From IMG/VR virus record IMGVR_UViG_3300022884_000016, positions 1-22,999 of that record: a stretch of 22,999 nt of DNA; one strand, given 5' to 3'. Origin of the DNA: a virus. The notes below the pieces were generated by a model. That model was not told the origin of the DNA, did not search any database, and was given only the letters and a program-made list of their open reading frames with translations. Made by a program: the position numbers and the translations under genes. Shown here piece after piece: positions 961-9,172 of the stretch. Numbering within the stretch: the first letter of the stretch is position 1; every line of letters starts with the position of its first letter.

Positions 961-1650
961 TTAGAAAGGCGGTTTGTCTTCGTCAGCCTCAGCGGCCGCA
1001 ACGGCTTCGGAAACCTCATCTTTTGGGGTTGTTCCTTCGCTTGCGGGTTGCGCGTTTTTGTCAATCGGTCGCTCAATACCTAGCGCGGCCCATTCTGGAG
1101 TTGTTACAATTTTGTCTTGCACGTATGTCGGCACGCTCTCGAAAGCCTTTAGTAATTCATTAGGCTCTAAATCGTACATGAAGATAACAGACTCGAGAAC
1201 TTGATCCGCTACTTTTATGCCTTTCATTAATTTCGCCACGGCTGACACTTTAGCGTATGGCTTGCCAGAGCTAACGCCAACGCCGTTAGCGATAGACAAT
1301 TGACAAGGCGCCCCTATTATAGTCGAAACGTCAAAGCCTTTGAGCTCAATTTCAGTAAAAGGTTTGCCCCTCCAAGCGTCAAGGTCTTTTCTTAAATTTG
1401 CTTTGTCGCCTAAACTCAAAGTGTACTCTTTTGAGATTATTCGAGGTTCTGGGCCTTTCGCCTCGTCAAACTCATAAAGCTCGGTCGGCAACTCCCAAGC
1501 TAGGCGAACCTTGTTTGGTCTCATTTTTTTGCCTTTATACTCGTCTTCTATCGTTCCTATGTGAACAATTTGAATACATCTTGCGGGGTACGTGCCCGCC
1601 TCAATTACGGGGATATTCGAACCGCCCGCGTCTGTTGCATTAATAGCCAT
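961..1650 (-). CDS. Phage protein with SSB-like acidic C-terminal tip (putative ssDNA-binding protein)
   Basis: A 229-residue protein starting at the ATG at 1650, after the leader AAAAAACAAATG. Residues from about 18 (GTYPARCIQIVHIGT, then KGKKMRPNKVRLAWELP) resemble a family of phage proteins found beside recombination ATPases and nucleases. The C-terminus is a low-complexity Ala/Glu/Asp linker ending DEDKPPF, much like the acidic tip of bacterial SSB proteins (DDDIPF), which recruits repair and replication partners. From this tail and the position next to an SbcC-like ATPase I infer a single-strand DNA-binding role in phage recombination or replication. No canonical OB-fold signature can be proved by eye. 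Alternatively it is an uncharacterised recombination accessory protein. Confidence 0.6.
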   Translation of the reverse strand: MAINATDAGGSNIPVIEAGTYPARCIQIVHIGTIEDEYKGKKMRPNKVRLAWELPTELYEFDEAKGPEPRIISKEYTLSLGDKANLRKDLDAWRGKPFTEIELKGFDVSTIIGAPCQLSIANGVGVSSGKPYAKVSAVAKLMKGIKVADQVLESVIFMYDLEPNELLKAFESVPTYVQDKIVTTPEWAALGIERPIDKNAQPASEGTTPKDEVSEAVAAAEADEDKPPF

Positions 1651-5647: not shown

Positions 5648-7927
5648 ATGCCGAAAATATCATTTTATCAAAGTGTAAAAAACTCATCTCAAACGACCGT
5701 GCTAGACCTTGACGACATTATGACAGGGATCCAAATTGGAGAATATGAGGCAATCGTCAGCGCCTACAGAAACGAAACCGACCCAGAGAAACGAAAAAAG
5801 TTAAAAATAGCGGTTCCGGCTTTCACAGGATCCGGAACCTTTGCGAAGAGATTAAACGAGAGTTTGATCAAACACTCGGGCCGAATTATTATAGACCTTG
5901 ACCACCTCGAAGACGTAGCAGCGGCAAAACTAAAGTTTAAAGGTGACGAGTTTGTCGAGTATGCTTTCACCTCTTTAGGTGGTCACGGCCTTGCGGTTGT
6001 GTTTAAGATTGACGGCTCGACTCACGGACAAAGCTTTCAAGAAATAAAGCAATATATAGAAACAAAATACAAGATCGAAGTCGATAAGGGAGTCAAAGAA
6101 GTTGCGCGGCTGAGGTTCGTTTCACACGATCCGGATTTGATATATAACGCCGAGGCTATACAATGGGAGACGCAAGCGCTAGGAGGCCGCGAAGTTTACG
6201 ACACCGACCGAATAAAGCATATAATCGGTACAAGTCTAAGTAATGCAATAGCGGGCGAGCGGCACTTTTTTAGAGTCAGAAACGCCAGACTTGCGGGGGG
6301 GTTTGTGGCCGGTGGCATGATTTCCGAAGACGAAATGCGCGACTTTATGCAAAGCGAAATTATTGCGCGAGGTATTGACGGCACGCGAAGACAAGCCGCT
6401 TTTAAGACAATAGAGGACGGTTTGATCTATGGGCGGCGCGATCCTATCACCAAAGAGAAAGCGCAAGAGTATGAAGTCAGACACGCCCAGACAACGAGCG
6501 CAATAAAAGAGGTTTTCGCTTTTGCTAATGATGTGAACAGAGCCGGCCGTGAATGGAACAAAGCCGACATTGACAACCTCGCAAAGCAGCACGGGTTGAA
6601 TTTTCCAGAGGTTGAGAAGATATTTAAAAGAGTATTTCACGAAAATAAAGACGAGTTCGGAATAAATGAAAAGCCAGAAATTGACAAAGTAGAATTATTC
6701 CTTTCGCGTCAATACGAGTTCTTTTTTAATGAGGTAACTCAGTTGAGAGAATATAGGGCCAAAGGGTCTAGTAGTAAATTTGTAAAAGTAAACTATGACA
6801 CCATTTGGAGAGCACTCTCAAAGCGCGGGTTTAAATTTCCACTCGATAAGCTCAAGAGTCTGTTGCGGTCTGACTTTGTGACGTCTTACAACCCGTTCAA
6901 AATGTATTTCGATAGCTTGCCAACTTGGAAGGCTAAAGACAAAAATCATGACCCTATAGGCGATTTAGCCGGCCACGTAGTTACTAAGACGCCCGTCTTT
7001 TTTAAAGAGCAGTTTAAAAAAGCGCTCGTGAGACAAATCGCTTGCGCTCTGGGCGGCTACGTAAATAGAATAGTGATTGTTTTAGTTTCCGAAGCTCAAG
7101 CCACCGGTAAAAGTACTTTTATTCGGTTCTTAAACCCTTTCGGCTTGGAGTATTACACTGAGAGCCCTTTGCAATCAAACAAAGATACAGAGTTCGCCTT
7201 TGTTGAAAATTTTATGTACAATTTAGAAGAGCTGAGCAGCTTATCAAATACAGACGTTAACAGGCTCAAGGCTATAATTTCGAAAGCGTCAATAAAGGAG
7301 CGTAAACCATACGCCCAAGACGCCGAGAGTCAGCCTAGGCGTTGCACCTTTTGGGGTTCTACTAATAAGACTGAGTTTTTGACCGACACACAAAACACCC
7401 GTTGGCTTTGTTTTACGGTTGAGTCGATCAAATGGGCCTACTCTAAAGAAATTAATATTAATGACGTTTACGCTCAAGCTCTGGCGCTATATAATGACAA
7501 AGACTTTAATTTTGAGTTAACGAGCGATGAGCAAGAAAAAAGAGATTTCATAAATAAAGGTTTCGAGATCGTAGATATAGAAAAGGAATTAATAATGCTG
7601 CATTTTAAGGTGTGCGCAAAGAATTCGGGCGAGTTCGTCAGTAATGCCGATATTTTAGAGCGCTTAACTAATTTCACAGAGGGCAAAATAAAATTAAACA
7701 CTCGTTTTATTAGTAAGTCGATGGTTCAACTCGACTTTGAGAGAGACACCAAAAAAGCAAACGGGCACGCGGTTCGCGGCTTTTGGGTTAAGCAATACGC
7801 AAAGCCTAACTATGAAGTTGTAACCGATAGCGCTATGACTTTAGACGAAAAGATCAAGATCGCCAGAGAGGCACGCGAAGCACTCGCCGAGTGCGTAGTC
7901 GATGAGAACGGAGACGCCCCTTTTTAA
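5648..7927 (+). CDS. Primase-helicase: BT4734-like N-terminal domain plus VapE/VirE-type SF3-like helicase
   Basis: A 759-residue replication protein. Residues 1 to about 165 match the BT4734-like/VirE N-terminal primase domain: IIDLDHL (81-87) supplies the metal-binding acidic motif, GGHGL (111-115) the second motif and ARLRFVSHDP (153-162) the third. The middle (about 190-340) is helical. The C-terminal half is a VapE-type ATPase with Walker A EAQATGKST (482-490), Walker B-like NLEEL (525-529) and a conserved block ending with TFWGSTNKTEFL (568-579) and NTRWLCF (583-589). By family it should make primers and unwind DNA to start replication. It is followed by a membrane protein gene and, 592 bases after its stop, by the start of the main iteron block, a likely origin. 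The start is the ATG after CAATAACCAA. Confidence 0.9.
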   Translation: MPKISFYQSVKNSSQTTVLDLDDIMTGIQIGEYEAIVSAYRNETDPEKRKKLKIAVPAFTGSGTFAKRLNESLIKHSGRIIIDLDHLEDVAAAKLKFKGDEFVEYAFTSLGGHGLAVVFKIDGSTHGQSFQEIKQYIETKYKIEVDKGVKEVARLRFVSHDPDLIYNAEAIQWETQALGGREVYDTDRIKHIIGTSLSNAIAGERHFFRVRNARLAGGFVAGGMISEDEMRDFMQSEIIARGIDGTRRQAAFKTIEDGLIYGRRDPITKEKAQEYEVRHAQTTSAIKEVFAFANDVNRAGREWNKADIDNLAKQHGLNFPEVEKIFKRVFHENKDEFGINEKPEIDKVELFLSRQYEFFFNEVTQLREYRAKGSSSKFVKVNYDTIWRALSKRGFKFPLDKLKSLLRSDFVTSYNPFKMYFDSLPTWKAKDKNHDPIGDLAGHVVTKTPVFFKEQFKKALVRQIACALGGYVNRIVIVLVSEAQATGKSTFIRFLNPFGLEYYTESPLQSNKDTEFAFVENFMYNLEELSSLSNTDVNRLKAIISKASIKERKPYAQDAESQPRRCTFWGSTNKTEFLTDTQNTRWLCFTVESIKWAYSKEININDVYAQALALYNDKDFNFELTSDEQEKRDFINKGFEIVDIEKELIMLHFKVCAKNSGEFVSNADILERLTNFTEGKIKLNTRFISKSMVQLDFERDTKKANGHAVRGFWVKQYAKPNYEVVTDSAMTLDEKIKIAREAREALAECVVDENGDAPF

Positions 7928-7951: not shown

Positions 7952-8338
7952 ATGAAAAATTACATTCGTTGGCTAATCGCTAACACTAGAATAAGAAAAG
8001 CAACCTTTGAGCTCTTTTGGCTTGCGTGCTACGTAGCCGGAGCGGTTGCCTCGATTTACTTTTCGATAGTCGAAGAGTGGCAAAATATATTCGGGCTTGG
8101 CTTTGTTTTTGCTATGGCTTTAAACCAATGGAAGAGGGCCAAAGCGGCTGAGGTTTTCAAGGTTGGCGAAATCGTTGGTTATTCTAAAAGATATATTGAG
8201 GACTTCGACCGGCCGCCGTTCTGGGCGGTTGACACTTTTAAAATATTAGAGGTTCACGAGTCGAGAGTCGAGGCCGAGAGGCTTAGAGACGGCATAAAAG
8301 TAGGATTAGAAAATTATCAAATAATCAAAACCAAATAA
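7952..8338 (+). CDS. Small membrane protein, 128 aa
   Basis: Starts at the ATG after the leader ACCAAAACCAAAACAAATG, the clearest example of the repeated A-rich leader. Residues about 20-40 (FELFWLACYVAGAVASIYFS) and 47-58 form two likely membrane spans. The remaining 70 residues form a soluble, charged cytoplasmic domain that includes EVFKVGEIVGYSKR and ends QIIKTK. No family is recognised. A membrane protein directly after a phage primase-helicase could anchor replication or act in superinfection control; both are guesses. Confidence 0.7.
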   Translation: MKNYIRWLIANTRIRKATFELFWLACYVAGAVASIYFSIVEEWQNIFGLGFVFAMALNQWKRAKAAEVFKVGEIVGYSKRYIEDFDRPPFWAVDTFKILEVHESRVEAERLRDGIKVGLENYQIIKTK

Positions 8339-8339
8339 C

Positions 8340-8519
8340 ATGACACAAACAGGAATAAACATTGTTTCTTTTACAGGAACTAAAGCCGTTAGTAAAAGCG
8401 AAGAGTATGCCAGAGACGCAATAAAAAGAGGGCTAAGAGTACACCCTCCTAGTGTGGCCATAGATTCTGGCTACAGAATAACTGTTGTTTTAATGGTTGA
8501 CAAGGTTACACTTGGCTAA
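8340..8519 (+). CDS. Short hypothetical protein, 59 aa, overlapping the first origin repeat
   Basis: A frame of 59 codons beginning MTQTGINIVSFTGTKAVSKS one base after the membrane protein stop and ending MVDKVTLG. Codon use and spacing match the operon, so it is probably real although short. Its last codons are made by the first GGTTACACT repeat (8504-8512), so the repeat array begins inside the gene. A terminator follows at 8551-8590. No domain is recognised. Confidence 0.6.
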   Translation: MTQTGINIVSFTGTKAVSKSEEYARDAIKRGLRVHPPSVAIDSGYRITVVLMVDKVTLG

Positions 8520-8793
8520 AAGTTACACTTGAGAGCTTTAAGTGTAACCCGCCCGCCTTCGCCCGTCTGTCAAGCGAACGCGGGCTTTTTGTGGGCTCGG
8601 GTTACACTAGTTACACTAGTTCTCTATATAGTTCTTTTACGGGGTGGGCGCGTGCCCTCCCTATTATTATTATTCTTTGATAATCTTTTTAGAAATATAA
8701 GTGTAACTAGTGTAACCCTATAATAAAAACCAACAAGGGCGAGGGCTAAGCGGTAAACACTACAAGTGTAACCTAGTGTAACCTAGTGTAACC
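8504..8793. repeat. Iteron-like array: ten copies of AGTGTAACY
   Basis: Copies of AGTGTAACC/T, or its complement RGTTACACT, start at 8504, 8521 (complement), 8541, 8600 and 8609 (complement), 8700 and 8709, and 8765, 8775 and 8785. The last three are spaced exactly 10 bases, close to one helical turn. The pairs at 8599-8617 and 8700-8718 (GGGTTACACTAGTTACACT and its complement) form a perfect 19-bp inverted repeat 82 bases apart. Between them lie a GGGC/GCCC hairpin (near 8646-8657) and an AT-rich run (8662-8700). Clustered repeats next to a primase-helicase gene suggest initiator binding sites, i.e. a replication origin. The alternative is a regulator array. Confidence 0.75.
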
Positions 8794-8812
8794 CTAAAAA
8801 ACACAATTAACA
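8520..8812. other. Gene-poor putative replication origin or control locus
   Basis: This 293-base stretch carries no convincing gene: the 64-codon frame at 8529-8723 is made largely of the repeats. It holds nine of the ten iterons, a terminator, the 19-bp inverted repeat and an AT-rich tract (TATTATTATTATTCTTTGAT region) that could open as an unwinding element. It separates the replication operon from the nuclease gene at 8813. No full TTG/TAnnTTTG promoter for that gene was found, so the repeats may also govern its expression. Confidence 0.55.
8551..8590 (+). terminator. Rho-independent terminator at the end of the replication operon
   Basis: GCCCGC (8551-8556) pairs with GCGGGC (8580-8585). 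Inside it TTCGC (8558-8562) pairs with GCGAA (8574-8578) with one mismatch between the stems, and TTTTT follows (8586-8590). It lies 31 bases after the 59-codon gene, embedded in the iteron array. Confidence 0.75.
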
Positions 8813-9172
8813 ATGATAGAAGCAAAAAGCGAAAGCCAAATACAAGCCGAATGTGTGAGATATATGAGAAACGATTTAAGGGTCGTATATGGCACTTTCT
8901 TTTCAGTTCCTAACGAGGGCAAGAGAAACCCCGTTAACGCCTCGAGAATGATCGCGCTAGGTCTTTTATCCGGTATTCCAGACCTTTTGTGGCTTGTAAA
9001 TCAAACAATCGTATTTTTTGAGCTAAAAACGACAAAAGGCCGAGCCTCAGCGAAACAAATATTAATACATGACAATCTAAGGGCCGAAGGTTTTGAGGTC
9101 TATATTGTAAAATCATTCGAAGAGTTTAAAAATGTCGTAACTTTGATAATTCAACGAAACCCTAAAACATGA
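8813..9172 (+). CDS. VRR-NUC domain nuclease (PD-(D/E)xK fold)
   Basis: A 119-residue protein matching the stand-alone phage VRR-NUC nucleases. The N-terminus ESQIQAECVRYMR carries the conserved Glu/Gln helix. GIPD (54-57) and FELK (69-72) give the PD-(D/E)xK catalytic residues Asp57, Glu70 and Lys72, and Gln82 in the following helix fits the family. Members are structure-selective nucleases, proposed to cut branched DNA such as Holliday junctions in phage genomes. It lies just after the putative origin and overlaps the lipoprotein gene by four bases (ATGA at 9169), so both are probably co-transcribed. Length is normal for the single-domain phage type. Confidence 0.88.
   Translation: MIEAKSESQIQAECVRYMRNDLRVVYGTFFSVPNEGKRNPVNASRMIALGLLSGIPDLLWLVNQTIVFFELKTTKGRASAKQILIHDNLRAEGFEVYIVKSFEEFKNVVTLIIQRNPKT

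Follow-up and report, generated by a model that had tools for sequence, protein, structure and literature searches.

A candidate iteron-type replication origin at the VapE-type primase-helicase locus of a Winoviridae-like phage, with a spacing layout that seems to recur among phages

The DNA analysed here (the window, a stretch of 22,999 bp) is a complete virus record in the collection (IMGVR_UViG_3300022884_000016). The phage is of Flavobacterium type; its gene order resembles that of Winoviridae phages, and it encodes terminase and structural genes. A block of short repeats (iterons) lies downstream of the gene for a predicted primase-helicase, and the small and large terminase genes lie 1.7-2.3 kb downstream of that block. 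The features of the locus are listed below with their positions in the window, strand and, where one applies, the source of the assignment.

5648..7927, + strand: predicted initiator with a BT4734-like PrimPol N-terminal domain and a VapE-type SF3 helicase, 759 aa (Pfam, PHROG)
7571..7795, + strand: predicted origin-binding winged-helix domain, residues ~642-716 of the initiator (AlphaFold2 model)
7952..8338, + strand: small ORF between the helicase gene and the block (ORF list; no Pfam match)
8340..8519, + strand: 59-aa ORF whose final codons contain the first iteron (ORF list)
8504..8512, - strand: left outer iteron AGTGTAACC (site search)
8521..8529, - strand: left outer iteron AGTGTAACT (site search)
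8541..8549, + strand: left outer iteron AGTGTAACC, inverted (site search)
8551..8590, + strand: terminator-like hairpin (stem-loop 8551-8585) followed by TTTTT (fold -20.6 kcal/mol over 8545-8595, z -2.4)
8599..8617, - strand: left inner dimer, iterons 8600 and 8609, 9 bp apart; left arm of the 19-bp inverted repeat
8618..8699: core separating the inverted dimers, 82 bp; its right half is a candidate melting site
8700..8718, + strand: right inner dimer, iterons 8700 and 8709, 9 bp apart; right arm of the inverted repeat
8752..8761, - strand: degenerate inverted iteron GGTAAACACT, an eleventh site (alignment with L014 and L015)
8765..8793, + strand: three iterons (8765, 8775, 8785) at exact 10-bp spacing (site search)
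8813..9172, + strand: VRR-NUC nuclease gene directly after the block (PF08774, E = 3.4e-5)

The motif AGTGTAACY has ten exact sites in the window (8504-, 8521-, 8541+, 8600-, 8609-, 8700+, 8709+, 8765+, 8775+ and 8785+), all ten inside 8504-8793 (a block of ~290 bases) and none elsewhere in the 22,999-bp record, against a chance expectation for the window of 0.23 (sd 0.47; maximum of 2 in 100 shuffles). In a 31-kb sibling contig with an identical helicase (the record of L013), all ten matches to GTGTAACY fall within the same block. A preliminary description of this DNA had reported ten copies in both orientations and had proposed counting the 9-mer over the whole genome; the copies are where it placed them, and they are restricted to the block in both records. 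It was equally right that the array starts in the final codons of the 59-aa ORF, that the last three copies are spaced by exactly 10 bp, and that a perfect 19-bp inverted repeat (8599-8617 and 8700-8718; 100% complementary, arms 82 nt apart) encloses a GC hairpin (8641-8662; fold z -2.2) and an AT-rich tract. AT content is 66% in the core and 85% in its right half (8660-8699), compared with 57% for the window. The three direct iterons stand 65, 75 and 85 bp from the site at 8700; binding at these helically spaced sites may be cooperative, as the preliminary description proposed with the spacing as its one basis. The terminator that it placed within the array corresponds to the terminator-like hairpin at 8551-8585, which is followed by TTTTT and folds with z -2.4; a pattern scan for terminators lists the core hairpin only, and the scan's total of four terminator-like sites is little above chance (1.4 expected, sd 1.2). 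The stretch GCCCGTCTGT at 8561-8570, located between the inner and the outer group of left iterons, is no iteron, yet it is identical in the window, L014 and L015.

The gene after the block is also the neighbour in the Winoviridae phages FPSV-S1 and lotta8-1, where primase and helicase are encoded by two neighbouring genes, after which come a non-coding gap, VRR-NUC and the terminase genes. In that same gap, FPSV-S1, lotta8-1 and Cellulophaga phage phi17:1 have an AT-rich core surrounded by arrays of GTGTAACC, TGGAACA and GTGACCA, i.e., blocks of similar layout built on other motifs in more distant helicase relatives. Conservation is closer in L014 and L015 (helicases 85% and 78% identical to that of the window), in which the inner dimers and right-hand sites occur at equivalent positions with orientation kept, and which by eye also have short ORFs resembling the 59-aa ORF. 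The comparison with relatives carrying the same primase-helicase, suggested in the preliminary description, thus found the block present with equivalent sites. Across the alignment of the window, L014 and L015, 62/81 iteron columns are invariant, vs 84/199 of the others (Fisher P = 2e-7), and the counterpart of the degenerate site at 8752-8761 is intact in L015 and near-intact in L014, inverted in both. No clear block was seen downstream of the related helicase gene in P12024S (L012), and scans of genome contigs for a host found no close bacterial relative.

These alignments bear on whether the element recognised is a DNA stem-loop (cruciform) rather than the iterons, as proposed for two other replicons: the archaeal plasmid pRN1, in which a stem-loop with 21 nt in the stem and 58 nt in the loop is required downstream of the primase-helicase gene, and Bordetella phage BIP-1, for which a large stem-loop origin has been suggested (PMC4234260). 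Both are like the window in having a primase, an SF3 helicase and a C-terminal winged helix with the origin downstream, and unlike it in that their origins are described as stem-loops and not iterons (PMC4234260). A perfect 19-bp inverted repeat with an 82-nt loop would suit such a structure. However, in L014 and L015 one stem position is mispaired through a change of single iterons to AATGTAAC while every site is still a recognisable iteron, and the outer iterons of the window lie outside the stem. Moreover, the counterpart in BPP-1 (L134), a relative of BIP-1, itself consists of inverted dimers, TTGCCTCG twice and CGAGGCAA twice with 9/78/9-bp spacing, 467-570 bp downstream of the primase stop (no outer array was found there by exact-word search). 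We therefore regard recognition of a cruciform as highly improbable and take the iterons as the sites that would be recognised.

The 759-aa protein encoded upstream of the block has the parts expected of an initiator acting at such sites. It matches PF08800 (E = 1.9e-14), a BT4734-like domain that predicts a fused primase, as well as PF05272 (E = 2.8e-28) and PF19263 (E = 1.5e-9), which identify an SF3 (VapE/D5) helicase domain; its PHROG class is DNA helicase/primase, and a profile built from this protein plus seven relatives hits PDB chain 7pds, which is similar to D. nodosus vapE, with E = 3e-29. A winged-helix DNA-binding domain is predicted at the C terminus (AlphaFold2 mean pLDDT of 89.5, topology helix-helix-helix-wing), for which the closest listed fold is the RFX DNA-binding domain (Z = 8.8). 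The origin-binding domain of P4 (1ka8) is a weak match to this model (Foldseek rank 8, E = 0.19, TM of 0.42 by target length) and is not among the best 50 matches listed by VIA-align, a weak similarity of fold between the P4 domain and the predicted domain of the window. Among ten window proteins scanned (a part of its ORFs), none was a Rep_3-type initiator. 3′ of the initiator gene, the block presents an AT-rich segment with a set of short iterons on either side; the preliminary description placed it beside the primase-helicase gene, and two small ORFs lie in between. The last residues of the primase-helicase are DENGDAPF, and in many relatives the C terminus is likewise acidic and closes with PF; the protein encoded at 961-1650 (- strand; phrog_862) ends in EADEDKPPF. 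Both C termini resemble the tail of single-strand binding protein, which recruits host replication proteins.

Sfi21, P4, EcCICFT073 and BPP-1 were chosen for their known or proposed origins and so illustrate the layout. One of them is Sfi21 (NC_000872), whose record annotates a 302-bp non-coding stretch as origin of replication, directly downstream of a D5-type SF3 helicase gene as in the window. The whole layout is present there: an AT-rich core lies between inverted dimers with 8-bp spacing, a further copy stands inverted at 51 bp, and three direct copies follow at 67, 79 and 87 bp. In contrast to the window, the Sfi21 iteron is AGTAAC (window AGTGTAACC), its helicase is Pox_D5/DUF5906 without a fused BT4734-like primase, and the phage infects a Firmicutes host, Streptococcus thermophilus. 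P4 (NC_001609) encodes alpha, a primase-helicase with a C-terminal winged-helix origin-binding domain (1ka8), and has directly downstream of it the crr, annotated as needed in cis for replication, with type 1 iterons in 9-bp dimers and an inverted copy 45 bp away; it differs in having a separate annotated ori on the other side of the alpha gene, in its iteron (GGTGAACA) and in a primase of the Toprim type (PMC4234260). In the PICI pri-rep-ori class (EcCICFT073, SaPI) the origin is likewise 3′ of the primase/initiator gene, and a plasmid given the EcCICFT073 origin and initiator gene was able to replicate in E. coli (PMC6092414). That origin has 9-bp dimers and an inverted copy 45 bp away; unlike in the window, the dimers are outermost and the arrays innermost, and the iteron is GGTAGACA. 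The outer arrangement thus differs from that of the window in both P4 crr and EcCICFT073. PICIs are satellites without a full virion gene set, whereas the window has terminase and structural genes; classing the window itself as a PICI was considered and rejected, given its small and large terminase genes and Winoviridae-like gene order.

An array in a non-coding gap between co-directional genes, with a terminator-like hairpin, could also be an operator, at which binding of a repressor or of the initiator would control the passage of transcription from replication to packaging genes and no origin would be present. Initiators often double as repressors, and this too would fit an operator. However, an operator does not account for the twofold symmetry centred on an AT-rich core, for the way the dimers are spaced or for the layout held in common with the annotated Sfi21 origin, and P4 crr, required in cis for replication by annotation, has the same dimer and 45-bp step downstream of its initiator gene. 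Promoter-like sites in the region number just two, at chance level. We consider a purely regulatory array very unlikely. Binding by the small terminase subunit at a packaging site (pac or cos) seems still less credible, to the point of being extremely improbable: the terminase genes are within reach of the block here, and near it in many relatives, but the distance between terminase and helicase genes varies from ~0.2 to 4.7 kb while the block stays by the helicase gene. Moreover, arrays of related layout come after the initiator gene both in P4 (no terminase in its record) and in EcCICFT073 (no terminase gene annotated beside the origin).

To place the origin reading in a wider set, a profile scan retrieved 74 viral loci with VapE relatives, which together with loci already collected, P4 and Sfi21 formed 59 clusters at 90% identity; 58 were scored (P4 and Sfi21 included), the 59th having too little downstream DNA. 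A 7-mer cluster within 400 bp downstream of the VapE stop codon, matched by <5% of the other scan windows of the same locus, was found in 40/58 non-redundant loci, a count that misses the window, L014 and L015, in which small ORFs separate the block from VapE. When the strongest block anywhere in each locus was taken instead (55 loci, without P4, Sfi21 and P12024S), 40 loci had a strong block, centred ≤1 kb downstream of VapE in 33, within 1 kb upstream in 1 and elsewhere in 6; the other 15 of the 55 VapE loci had no strong short-repeat block. L044, L115, L116 and L119 have a repeat block upstream of VapE and not downstream. The iteron words differ widely by clade (AGTGTAACC, TGTTCCAC, CGTTCACAC, CTTACTACA). 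On sequence comparison, a block of similar layout is found in the same place in dozens of phages, written in different short words. A common theme, TGNAAC, was tried across clades and rejected: orientation by TGNAAC conflicts with orientation by layout, and therefore homology of iteron words between clades is not claimed.

In the recurring layout, 8-9 bp dimers in inverted orientation enclose an AT-rich core; ~43 bp outward comes an inverted copy, and after it a direct array. Adjacent inverted dimer pairs were present in 19/41 loci (P4 and Sfi21 included), whereas placing sites at random gives 0.15 (sd 0.38) and shuffling their orientations alone gives 2.9 (sd 1.6). In these 19 loci, the preferred distances from the inner site are 49-55 bp for inverted copies and 63-65, 72-75 and 83-85 bp for direct ones; in the window the direct distances are 65, 75 and 85 bp. 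The dimer-plus-43-bp rule, formulated and counted on the same loci, held in 22/42 (P4, Sfi21 and EcCICFT073 included), vs 5.8 or 9.6 under two nulls, and more weakly over 16 clusters (8 vs 3.2 or 4.2); the window itself scores negative because its inverted copy is degenerate. The layout of spacings seems to be retained through turnover of the iteron sequence. Across 36 loci, motif distance was correlated with winged-helix distance given the ATPase (partial r = 0.27, reached in 0/1000 permutations, in which shared descent remains) and hardly with ATPase distance given the winged helix (partial r = 0.06); the segment of residues 345-384 correlates with motif distance about equally well. This correlation is in modest agreement with a C-terminal domain that would recognise the iterons.

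Taken together, the block is very probably the replication origin of this phage, which its own primase-helicase would bind through the winged helix, and it is best read as a further member of the P4/PICI/Sfi21 kind of origin with an SF3 primase-helicase initiator. The resemblance to a phage origin that the preliminary description had pointed out is thereby strengthened: to the confined 9-mer are added the blocks of relatives and the likeness to Sfi21, P4 crr and EcCICFT073. This reading rests on the sites, their layout and conservation, and the place beside the initiator gene in many lineages, and also on a predicted winged-helix fold and on analogy to annotated or tested origins. The C-terminal winged helix of the VapE-type primase-helicase would contact the AGTGTAACY iterons, the inverted dimers would load the protein on both sides of the AT-rich core, and two helicase rings could then assemble in opposite directions and melt the core, where the fused PrimPol would lay primers; extra initiator copies may be brought in by the outer inverted copy and by the direct array with its helical spacing. 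Cumulative GC skew, proposed earlier as a sign of the origin, gave no such support, having no extreme at the block in the window; the detrended minimum lies 3.5 kb from the block in FPSV-S1 and 0.2 kb from it in lotta8-1.

The block offers a concrete origin candidate for Winoviridae-like phages of Bacteroidota; a literature search covering few subscription papers found no description of this block in Bacteroidota phages or of where replication starts in the Winoviridae-like ones. The PICI origin layout was described as common to no other known bacterial replicon (PMC6092414); on the loci compared here, many tailed phages have it too. More surprising than the origin itself is that spacing seems to persist amid iteron turnover. 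It is an evenly balanced question whether phage and satellite origins with SF3 primase-helicases follow one spacing rule (inverted 8-9 bp dimers, an AT-rich core between them, then an inverted copy at ~43 bp and direct ones near 65, 75 and 85 bp) that outlasts complete iteron turnover, with initiator and word co-diversifying and with BIP-1-like stem-loop origins being the same inverted dimers. If so, origins and initiators could be predicted and paired from sequence alone, and winged-helix residues set against iteron sequences would form a data set for DNA-recognition rules.

Tandem copies of AGTGTAACY also occur near other replication genes, namely D5_N/DUF5906 (L026), Prim-Pol (L033), a CHC2 zinc-finger primase (L036) and DUF3987 (L037). 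A different cluster, of AGTGTAAC with spacings of 10, 12 and 45 bp, is common to nine contigs (L016, L019, L020, L022, L025, L029, L031, L032 and L040), in the examined stretches of which no VapE gene was found; in the contigs inspected, this cluster adjoins a small gene without family assignment as well as a cytosine methylase gene.
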